From the NCBI RefSeq assembly GCF_000526495.1, contig NZ_JAGE01000001.1:1-64000 (forward strand): 64,000 nt of DNA. The letters run 5' to 3'. This document shows, in pieces, positions 5,170-9,346 of the stretch (position 1 is the stretch's first letter; every line of letters starts with the position of its first letter). Under the pieces are notes generated by a model, which did not search any database, was not told where the DNA came from, and was given only the letters and a program-made list of their open reading frames with translations. Origin of the DNA: Ruminiclostridium josui JCM 17888. Its GTDB lineage: Bacteria; Bacillota; Clostridia; Acetivibrionales; DSM-1351. The translations under genes were made by a program, and so were the position numbers.

Positions 5170-7041
5170 TTATAACGCGGTATTTTTTAACAAATCTATT
5201 ATATCATTTGTTACAGAGTCTGTATCTAATCTGATTTTTTTCATAAGTTCTTCTCTGGAACCATGAGGTATAAACTGCTCCGGCAAACCTTTTATTAGTA
5301 ACCGTGTTTTATAATTAAGAGTGTTAAGGGTATCAAGTACTCTGCTGCCGAATCCCCCCATTACACAATTATCCTCCAATGTTACAAGGTTTTGATATTT
5401 ATCTGCACATTTCTTAACCAATTCAACATCCAAAGGCTTAATAAACCTAGCGTTGACAACTCCTGCACTAATACCTTGCTCTTTCAGCTTTTCAGACACT
5501 TGTAAAGCTGTCTCAACCATACTGCCAACAGCGAGTATACACACATGCTGTCCCTCTTCCAGTACTACTCCTTTACCTAGTATTATAGGCATTTCCTGTT
5601 TAATTAAATCCTTTCCTCTGCCTCTAGGATATCTGACAGCTATAGGTCCGTTATGTTTGTTTATGGCATAATCAACCATTGCTTTAAGTTCATAATAATC
5701 GGCAGGAGCCATTATTGTAAAATTAGGTATGTGATTCAAAAATGATATATCAAATTCTCCCTGATGAGTTTCTCCATCCTCACCTACAATTCCAGCTCTG
5801 TCAACACCTAAAACTACATGCAGTTTCTGAATTGCTACATCGTGTATAAGCTGATCATATGCCCTTTGTAAAAATGATGAATAAACTGCAACAACAGGGA
5901 CCATACCGTTAATGGCCATTCCGGCCGCTGATGTAACTGCATGCTGTTCGGCTATACCCACGTCAAAAAACCTTTGGGGATACTTTTCGCTGAATTTGGA
6001 TAACCCAGTTCCTTTTGCCATTGCTGCTGATATGGCAACCACTCTGTTATTTATATCAGCTGCTTCTAAAACCGCTTCTCCAAAAACTTCAGAATAATCC
6101 GGTAGCTTCTTACCGTACGTTTCTCCTGTCTCTATCTCAAAAGGTGCTATTCCGTGAAATCTGTCAGGACTTTCTTCCGCATAGGAATAGCCCTTCCCTT
6201 TTTGAGTACATACATGAATCAGCACAGGCCCTTTTATTTTCTTTGCTGCCTGAATTGATTTGTTCAACTCATCTAGGCTATGCCCATCTACAGGTCCGTA
6301 ATACTTATAACCTAATTGCTCAAAAAATACTCCCGGCGTAATCAGGTATTTTACAGTACCTTTTAATTTACGGACAGCCTTCCTAGCCTTTTTACTAATA
6401 TTAGGCATTTTGTCAAGAAATTTATCTATATCTTCTTTAGTTTTTGTGTAAACTGGGTCAGTACGCAGTTTACTTAAATATCTTGACATTCCACCAACAT
6501 TCTGTGCTATAGACATTTCATTGTCATTAAGTATTACAATGAAATTACTTGTTAGTCTCCCAGCATCATTTAAGGCTTCATAAGCCATTCCGCCAGTCAT
6601 TGCCCCATCGCCTATAATAGCCATTACACTGTAGTTTTCTTTTTTTATATCCCTTGCACGGGCAATACCCAGCGCTGCAGAAATAGAAGTACTGCTATGC
6701 CCAGTGTTAAAGCAATCGTGTACACTTTCACAGGTTTTTGGAAATCCGGCTAAGCCTCCAAATTTTCGTAATGTATCGAAATCTTCCTTTCGGCCTGTCA
6801 ATATCTTGTGGACATAAGATTGATGCCCTACGTCCCAAACAATTTTGTCCTTATTTGTATTAAAGTTTTTATGAATCGAAAGTGTCAGTTCAACAACTCC
6901 CAGATTAGAAGCCAAATGCCCCCCAGTCTTTGAAACTTTATTTATAAGAAACGTTCTAATTTCTTCTGCAAGAACCTTTAATTCTTCTATCTCCAATTTT
7001 GCTACATCTTCAGGAGAGTTTATACCATTGAGATACCCCAC
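5170..7041 (-). CDS. dxs: 1-deoxy-D-xylulose-5-phosphate synthase
   Basis: First enzyme of the MEP isoprenoid pathway; condenses pyruvate and glyceraldehyde 3-phosphate using thiamine diphosphate. 623 aa, full length. The TPP-binding motif GDGAMTGGMAYEALNDAG is near residues 150-170. The GHSSTSIS His motif, the EDGETHQGEFD pyrimidine-domain motif and a C-terminal transketolase domain are all present. GTG start at 7041 with GGAG upstream. It follows oapA by 5 nt, so the two are co-transcribed, and it shares the cluster with ispA, linking precursor supply to prenyl diphosphate synthesis. Confidence 0.97.
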   Translation of the reverse strand: MGYLNGINSPEDVAKLEIEELKVLAEEIRTFLINKVSKTGGHLASNLGVVELTLSIHKNFNTNKDKIVWDVGHQSYVHKILTGRKEDFDTLRKFGGLAGFPKTCESVHDCFNTGHSSTSISAALGIARARDIKKENYSVMAIIGDGAMTGGMAYEALNDAGRLTSNFIVILNDNEMSIAQNVGGMSRYLSKLRTDPVYTKTKEDIDKFLDKMPNISKKARKAVRKLKGTVKYLITPGVFFEQLGYKYYGPVDGHSLDELNKSIQAAKKIKGPVLIHVCTQKGKGYSYAEESPDRFHGIAPFEIETGETYGKKLPDYSEVFGEAVLEAADINNRVVAISAAMAKGTGLSKFSEKYPQRFFDVGIAEQHAVTSAAGMAINGMVPVVAVYSSFLQRAYDQLIHDVAIQKLHVVLGVDRAGIVGEDGETHQGEFDISFLNHIPNFTIMAPADYYELKAMVDYAINKHNGPIAVRYPRGRGKDLIKQEMPIILGKGVVLEEGQHVCILAVGSMVETALQVSEKLKEQGISAGVVNARFIKPLDVELVKKCADKYQNLVTLEDNCVMGGFGSRVLDTLNTLNYKTRLLIKGLPEQFIPHGSREELMKKIRLDTDSVTNDIIDLLKNTAL

Positions 7042-7046
7042 TTGAA

Positions 7047-7709
7047 TTACTCCTTTATAGTACCTTTGTTAGCGCGTTTTTTTTTATTATTCCATTTCTT
7101 TTTCTTTTTAAAATTTATTTTTCCAAATAGAAATTTTATAACTACTGCTACTTTGTATATTATGTAATTACTGTTTTGCAATGCTATGGATTTACCCAGT
7201 GCTTTTCCTCCAACTGTTAGGGATGCAACCATTGCTGTAATGGAAAGTCCAAAAATAGAATTTTGTGCATCCGTACCGCCTCCCGAAAACTTGTATACAA
7301 TAAAGGCAGCCGCCGTACCGCTTATTACACCGCAAATATCCCCAACAACATCGTTGCAGAAATTTGAGACCTTGTCGGCATTTCTTATTAGCATAACAGC
7401 CTGTTTAGCACCATAAAGCTTTCTTGATGCCATAGAATGAAATGGTGCCTCATCCGCAGCTGTTGCAGCTGTACCTATAAGGTCAAATAATATACTTATG
7501 ATTATTATAACAAAAACAATAAGAAATGAAACAACTGTGGTAGCATTGCCTAATGTTTCATTTGAAAAAAAAGACATAAAAATTGAAATGAAAAAAGTTA
7601 TTACCGTTATTGATAATGTCCAAACTCTTGTTTCTTTTTTAGAGCTAACTGCATTAGCCCTGAATTTAACTTTCTTTTCATCGGCTGGATGTTTTAAATT
7701 ATCTTCCAC
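7047..7709 (-). CDS. oapA: OLE-associated protein OapA (DUF21/CNNM-like membrane protein)
   Basis: Membrane protein with no CBS domains, 220 aa. It has hydrophobic segments near residues 29-50, 57-80, 120-140 and 150-175. The central region GTAATAADEAPFHSMASRK, continuing to NADKVSNFCNDVVGDICG, resembles the DUF21 transmembrane module of CNNM/CorB proteins. The C-terminal tail is very lysine-rich (KKKKKWNNKKKRANKG), as expected for RNA binding. GTG start at 7709 with GGAGG upstream. It lies directly downstream of the OLE RNA and 5 nt upstream of dxs, the position known for OapA, which binds OLE RNA and carries it to the membrane. The assignment rests on this synteny and the domain pattern. 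Confidence 0.88.
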   Translation of the reverse strand: MEDNLKHPADEKKVKFRANAVSSKKETRVWTLSITVITFFISIFMSFFSNETLGNATTVVSFLIVFVIIIISILFDLIGTAATAADEAPFHSMASRKLYGAKQAVMLIRNADKVSNFCNDVVGDICGVISGTAAAFIVYKFSGGGTDAQNSIFGLSITAMVASLTVGGKALGKSIALQNSNYIIYKVAVVIKFLFGKINFKKKKKWNNKKKRANKGTIKE

Positions 7710-7731: not shown

Positions 7732-8345
7732 AAAAACAGGTGGCAGTTTATTGAGTAAATTTTGCGGCTTAGGTCAGGCAGGATTTCCCTGACATGTGCT
7801 GGAATGTCGCCAAACCAGTGGTTTCCCTTTAAACATATCACCGTGCGTCTCCGTTTACGGGGCCTGATTACCACTTAGTCCACACTTTAATCCCCAACAA
7901 ACCACTTATAAGAACAGTCTAGGGGTTTTCCCCAACAGTCAAAATGATTCCTAGCCTCTTTTGCAAAAAGGGTTTCAAACAGCAATAATGCTTATATATC
8001 GGCCAATACATGAAGCATCTGATCCGTTATTCACCGAATTTCACTCAAGGCAGGCTACACTGTTCACAGCCATCATATAGACACCGCATAACAGGTTTAA
8101 TCCCTTTTCGTAGTCGAGGTGGCAAGCAAAAAGCTTGACTTTTCTTCCACAAGTAAGGGTCTCCACGGAAAAGGGGTCAACGCCCGCATGCCATTGCGGA
8201 TCGCCCCTAATCCTTAACTCCCAGCATCAACCCACCACTGGGCGTAGCAAGCCGACACCAGGAACTTCATCGATGTGCCCTTAAACGGATTTTTAGGCCC
8301 GTCTTCAGAATCATCAGTACTGACTAGAATACTGCGCCACCCTGT
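7732..8345 (-). ncRNA. ole: OLE RNA (ornate, large, extremophilic RNA), about 610 nt
   Basis: A 740-bp gap without reading frames separates ispA and oapA. Read on the minus strand the RNA starts near 8345 with ACAGGGTGGCGCAGT and ends near 7736 with ACTGCCACCTGT followed by five T. These ends pair with each other as a closing P1 stem. The length between them is 610 nt, the known OLE size. The interior is GC-richer than its flanks and has many small stems, for example GTCAGG/CCTGAC at 7773-7778 and 7788-7793. The surroundings (ispA upstream, OapA and dxs downstream) match the known OLE locus. OLE forms a membrane ribonucleoprotein linked to tolerance of alcohols, cold and magnesium stress. I did not align it to the family model. 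Confidence 0.88.
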
Positions 8346-8449: not shown

Positions 8450-9334
8450 TTATCTGTCCCTTACGACCAGTGATAATGCAAGTTCTTTTAAAAACTGTGC
8501 CTTATTCCCGAATGCTTCTAAACATGAAATGCCTTCTTGAGTTACCGTTTCTAAGAGCTTTTTTGACTCCTCAATACCGTACATAGTTACATAAGTTGAT
8601 TTATTACATGAAGAATCCTTTCCGGGATTCTTCCCCATATTTTCAACGGTTCCCTCTATGTCAAGTATATCGTCCTTTATCTGAAAAGCTAAACCTAAAT
8701 TTGCTGCATATCCTGACAGAAGCTCAAATTCCTTTTTCTCTGCACCGCATATTACTGCTGCAGCTTCCACCGGAGCTTTTATCAACGCACCTGTTTTTAG
8801 TTTATGCATTGTTTTTAGCCTTTCACTTTCAATGGTTTTTCCTTCTGATTGAAGATCAATTACCTGACCTCCTACCATTCCTAATGCCCCTGCATATTTG
8901 GCAACTATTCCGGCAGCCCGCATTTTTTCAATACTCTTGGACTCCACTGCATCATTAATCATTATCTCATAAGCCATATTCAATAGTCCATCTCCGGCAA
9001 GTATTGCCATGGCTTCACCAAACACCTTGTGGTTTGTCGGCTTTCCCCTTCTGAAATCATCATTATCCATAGCCGGCAAATCATCGTGTATCAGTGAGTA
9101 TGTATGAATCATTTCAATTGCACAGCCAAAATTAACTACCTCTTGAAGAGGCTTATCTAGCAAATCAGCAACAGCAAGTGCCAATAAAGGTCTCAATCTC
9201 TTGCCTCCGGCTAAAAGACTGTATGACATTGCTTCTTTTATATCAAGGCAGTATCCGTTAACTTCTGGAATAATATTATGAAGCCTCTCTTCAATAATAT
9301 TCACATATATATCATTTTTTTCCTTAAAATTCAT
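8450..9334 (-). CDS. ispA: Polyprenyl (farnesyl/geranyl) diphosphate synthase
   Basis: Head-to-tail condensation of isopentenyl diphosphate with allylic diphosphates, probably yielding farnesyl diphosphate. The two aspartate-rich motifs are visible: HDDLPAMDNDDFRRG (the first, with the extra residues typical of bacterial short-chain enzymes) and KDDILD. GGKRLRP binds isopentenyl diphosphate. The start is the ATG at 9334 (MNFKEK, 294 aa) because GGGAGG is 5 nt upstream; the ATG four codons earlier contains this ribosome-binding site. It is 12 nt after xseB. Confidence 0.95.
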   Translation of the reverse strand: MNFKEKNDIYVNIIEERLHNIIPEVNGYCLDIKEAMSYSLLAGGKRLRPLLALAVADLLDKPLQEVVNFGCAIEMIHTYSLIHDDLPAMDNDDFRRGKPTNHKVFGEAMAILAGDGLLNMAYEIMINDAVESKSIEKMRAAGIVAKYAGALGMVGGQVIDLQSEGKTIESERLKTMHKLKTGALIKAPVEAAAVICGAEKKEFELLSGYAANLGLAFQIKDDILDIEGTVENMGKNPGKDSSCNKSTYVTMYGIEESKKLLETVTQEGISCLEAFGNKAQFLKELALSLVVRDR

Positions 9335-9346
9335 ATTTCCTCCCAA

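Follow-up and report, generated by a model that had tools for sequence, protein, structure and literature searches.

The window, by which we mean the whole 64-kb stretch of Ruminiclostridium josui DNA that was analysed, carries on its minus strand the gene series nusB-xseA-xseB-ispA-ole-oapA-dxs, continued by genes for an S4/FtsJ-type methyltransferase and NAD kinase, and by argR and recN. This order agrees with that of published ole clusters, in which ole has genes of isoprenoid synthesis, of DNA repair and of kindred functions as its neighbours (PMC12265935). Upstream of ole lies ispA (8450-9346, minus strand; NF045485, E 3.4e-106, above the cut-off), which encodes farnesyl diphosphate synthase and ends with its stop codon at 8450. 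Downstream, oapA (7047-7709, minus strand) has GTG as its start codon, at 7709, preceded by GGAGG, and encodes a membrane protein of 220 aa with a lysine-rich C-terminus, assigned by its resemblance to the CNNM model (PF01595) and by relatives that adjoin OLE. Five bases after oapA begins dxs (5170-7041, minus strand; TIGR00204, E 1.3e-249), so that the setting given in an earlier note on this DNA, between ispA and a membrane protein gene followed by dxs, is the one found. The same note had called the membrane protein lysine-tailed, which is correct, 12 of its last 30 residues being lysine, and DUF21-type, which is fair but weak, as the match to PF01595 has an E-value of 2.5e-5 but, at 24.4 bits, stays below the cut-off of 28.4. 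Such a weak relation to CNNM/DUF21 is what the literature states of OapA (PMC11332333). Hydropathy places hydrophobic segments of the protein at residues 27-86 and 120-139.

Between ispA and oapA, the Rfam model of OLE RNA (RF01071) matches the minus strand at 8356-7724 (cmscan) over its whole length, positions 1-616, with 543.8 bits and an E-value of 1.1e-156, the gathering score being 50. This comparison, which the earlier note had proposed together with the OLE identity itself, thus supports that identity far above threshold, and the match is the only one above threshold when the 64-kb window is compared with all Rfam families. Delimited by its own outer stem, the ole element extends from 8342 to 7738, and the coordinates first put forward, 7732-8345, were therefore right to a few bases. 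No minus-strand open reading frame of at least 70 aa lies inside the element. Relative to the Rfam model, there is an insertion of 14 nt at 8121-8134 (minus strand), in the P7/P8 region, whose length varies among relatives. The element is almost certainly a complete and canonical OLE RNA, an ordinary copy in its usual gene setting and accompanied by its partner OapA. Work on OLE RNA and OapA goes back to 2006, and catalogues list them in thousands of genomes of Bacillota. A survey of GTDB R214 counted 2,822 OLE matches in Bacillota (PMC11332333), and the present locus agrees with existing knowledge of the class and adds little that is new. A literature search for OLE RNA together with the name 'cellulolyticum' found nothing, and phage records were without OLE-like DNA.

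The pairing of the two ends was analysed in an alignment of 41 OLE sequences, comprising that of the window and its relatives, in which the pairs of the stems P1, P2, P3 and P3.1 were counted. The core of P1 consists of seven contiguous pairs, one of them G-U, between the 5' strand GGGUGGC at 8342-8336 and the 3' strand GCCACCU at 7744-7738 (minus strand, both placed by the alignment); both ends are unpaired in the Rfam consensus, and a second copy of GCCACCU is present inside the RNA. The earlier note had described the ends, ACAGGGTGGC and GCCACCTGT, as pairing exactly; the ends do pair, as covariation attests, but not exactly, as the two strands are unequal in length and the nine-pair form of P1 carries one bulged G. 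Over P1 to P3.1, 94.7% of cells are paired and 17 of the 25 pairs have changed on both sides, values reached by none of 500 shuffles, and the pairing falls to 35-51% when the partner strand is slid by 1-3 columns. In P1 itself, six of the seven pairs have changed on both sides with pairing kept (90.6% of cells paired), as have all six pairs of P3.1. Given the covariation, the shuffle control and the loss on sliding, the pairing of the ends is a product of evolution and not a coincidence. The published OLE model has a stem P1 in domain 2 (PMC12265935), to which the end pairing found here probably corresponds.

The 5' strand of P2 (GCAGUAUUCUAG, 8324-8335, minus strand) contains a CUAG palindrome, and the literature puts an OapA site 'in or near P2' (PMC12265935); the strand pairs with the 3' strand (CUAGACUGU, aligned at 7922-7914, minus strand) in 98.5-100% of cells. 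The CUAG pairs are invariant across the alignment, as would be expected if OapA reads them. Beyond P2, the strands of P3/P3.1, a helix proposed to cross the membrane, lie at 8309-8322 and 7936-7949 (minus strand, from the alignment). Minimum free energy folding also joined the ends, but did not recover the published model throughout. The four stems P1, P2, P3 and P3.1 are, across the aligned sequences, backed by covariation.

The genome, of about 4.47 Mb in two contigs, has a single copy of OLE, and one OLE per genome was likewise found in all 11 genomes searched of the GTDB family, all of which belong to one genus. The named relatives are Ruminiclostridium species, the nearest being R. papyrosolvens C7, whose OapA is 96% identical. 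A search of genomes with the OapA of R. josui yielded 59 loci, 56 of which carry an OLE match; in two of the other three (L048 and L062) the upstream DNA is too short to judge, so that OLE lies just upstream of OapA in 56 of the 57 judgeable relatives, in keeping with the partnership claimed before. The third locus without an OLE match (L050) belongs to a metagenome-assembled genome (MAG) in which OLE is found on another contig (L090), with no OapA within 1.5 kb on either side; in that MAG the two are apparently unlinked. Another MAG (JAFTJA01) has near-identical OLE-OapA loci on two contigs (L028, L031), representing either a duplication or a mixture of strains. In a Ruminiclostridium-like MAG, the OLE at L012:2408-2956, on a contig shared with L011, is without part of P7/P8 and without the 3' end including P1, and an OapA gene adjoins it; this is either a decayed OLE or an error of MAG assembly.

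The position of ole, which immediately precedes oapA and dxs and points the same way, would also suit a mere long structured leader, that is, a 5' UTR acting in cis on these genes and not a free RNA. Its ends would fit such a leader as well, as there is no clear promoter at ole (13 promoter-like sites were found, with 12.7 expected by chance) and no terminator-like site at either end. However, OLE is conserved over its whole length, and in H. halodurans the class is known as a separate, abundant and membrane-bound RNA (PMC12265935); moreover, a leader would not allow the arrangement in the MAG of L050, where OLE stands apart from OapA. On the strength of the whole-length conservation and this unlinked OLE, a leader acting in cis was rejected as highly improbable. 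The decayed-looking copies in relatives, such as that of L012, which lacks two parts of the RNA (with assembly error as the other explanation), could suggest that the element of R. josui is likewise a degenerate, non-functional relic. Its full-length score, though, is no lower than those of its relatives, its conserved positions and compensatory pairs are kept, and OapA, OapB and OapC are intact. Contradicted by covariation and score, decay was dismissed, and its probability is close to negligible.

As a complete OLE RNA, the element contains the sequences through which OLE is known to dimerise, namely an A-A contact in the P4 loop (bridge B1) and a kissing loop in L9.3 (bridge B3) (PMC12286853). 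Both are recognised here by their sequence motifs: the conserved A run of the P4 loop (CCUAAAAAUCC, placed by its position in the sequence) at 8287-8297, and the L9.3 loop with palindromic GGCC at 7997-8008 (both minus strand). Among the 41 aligned sequences, the L9.3 palindrome is GGCC in 33, AGCU in two and GAUC in one, and is missing in five. The published OapA sites of OLE RNA are palindromes (PMC12265935), and the AUCGAU palindrome at 8268-8277 (minus strand) is the likely position of the one in P4a. The J4a/5 strand of the OapC kink turn (GAUGAAGUUCC) probably lies at 8261-8271 (PMC9723947), and the P13 stem-loop with GGCGAC, the OapB-binding region, at 7799-7818 (PMC12265935), both on the minus strand. 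To judge from these motifs, the RNA has all the predicted elements: those for dimerisation, the sites of OapA and of OapB, and the kink turn.

Homologues of the other partner proteins are also encoded in the genome. The OapB homologue (L085:6754-7035) lies between map and infA and matches PDB entry 7k9b, 'OLE-associated protein B', with an E-value of 5.5e-10; its product is without a Pfam match, the KOW model of Pfam included, and it was located by its gene position. An OapC/YbxF homologue (L086:885-1127; YbxF 4lck, E 2.5e-14) is found just upstream of rpsL, and a gene for bS21 is present.

The particle may be envisaged as follows. Because no clear promoter and no terminator-like site were found at the ends of ole, the case for a discrete RNA is drawn from the OLE class; ole would most likely be transcribed with its neighbours and then trimmed to about 600 nt. 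In the folded RNA the ends would be joined in P1, as covariation shows, and two such RNAs would dimerise via the P4 A run and the GGCC loop of L9.3, by analogy with C. acetobutylicum and C. botulinum, in which OLE dimerisation has been shown. OapA would hold the RNA at the membrane via the palindromes of P2 and P4a, while OapC would bind the kink turn, OapB P13 and bS21 P6. One model places OLE RNA across the membrane. The particle would aid endurance of alcohol, cold, high Mg2+ and poor carbon sources, by analogy with Halalkalibacterium halodurans, in which stress phenotypes of these four kinds have been shown. Among structured bacterial RNAs to which, to our knowledge, no biochemical activity has been assigned, OLE is one of the largest, and the lack of an assigned activity extends to the whole class. 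Expression, binding and physiology in R. josui may be presumed from H. halodurans, C. acetobutylicum and C. botulinum.

Contact with bS21 is the weakest step of this explanation, because the strict anti-Shine-Dalgarno mimic is missing. The bS21 site of H. halodurans is a perfect CCUCCU mimic (PMC12054373); the corresponding 3' strand of P6, at 8176-8167 (minus strand), reads CCCCUUUUCC and contains no CCUCCU. Only three of the 41 aligned sequences have CCUCC at this site (alignment columns 199-216). The mimic is a feature of the binding site of one species and not of the OLE class, and the identification is unaffected. A further peculiarity concerns the Mg2+ exporter MpfA, with which OLE anticorrelates, genomes with OLE as a rule encoding at most one MpfA (PMC11332333). 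The present genome has two open reading frames, of 438 and 445 aa, with both CNNM and CorC_HlyC domains, i.e., of the full-length MpfA type (CNNM loci L081 and L082; CorC_HlyC matches at G000:C1:251214-251444 and 2092508-2092735). Each of the 11 genomes from this genus has at least one CorC_HlyC protein of this full length, and three of them have a second. Since the published anticorrelation is a tendency, the two proteins are an exception and not a contradiction, and they leave the identification of OLE as it stands. Since each of the species examined encodes one or two MpfA-type exporters of full length and a perfect anti-Shine-Dalgarno mimic is wanting, the role of OLE in Ruminiclostridium could have shifted from Mg2+ export and bS21 sensing to another task, e.g., alcohol tolerance in organisms making ethanol from cellulose, although we consider such a shift unlikely.

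The locus itself brings no new principle, but a mesophilic cellulose degrader that forms ethanol and has a clean copy of OLE offers a further possible host in which to test the link with alcohol tolerance. Compared with the OLE class (RF01071, full-length type), the RNA is alike in covering the whole model, in size, in P1-P3, in the conserved loops, in gene neighbourhood and in the adjoining OapA; it is unlike in the 14-nt insertion of the length-variable P7/P8 region and in a P6 without the perfect CCUCCU mimic. With the OLE dimer of C. acetobutylicum, resolved by cryo-EM (PMC12286853), it shares the A run of the P4 loop and the GGCC of L9.3, a likeness seen here at the level of sequence motifs. 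The OLE ribonucleoprotein of H. halodurans consists of OLE with OapA, OapB, OapC and bS21, and R. josui encodes a homologue of, or a candidate for, each of the four proteins; H. halodurans, however, is without MpfA (PMC11332333), whereas the present genome has its two CNNM and CorC_HlyC proteins.
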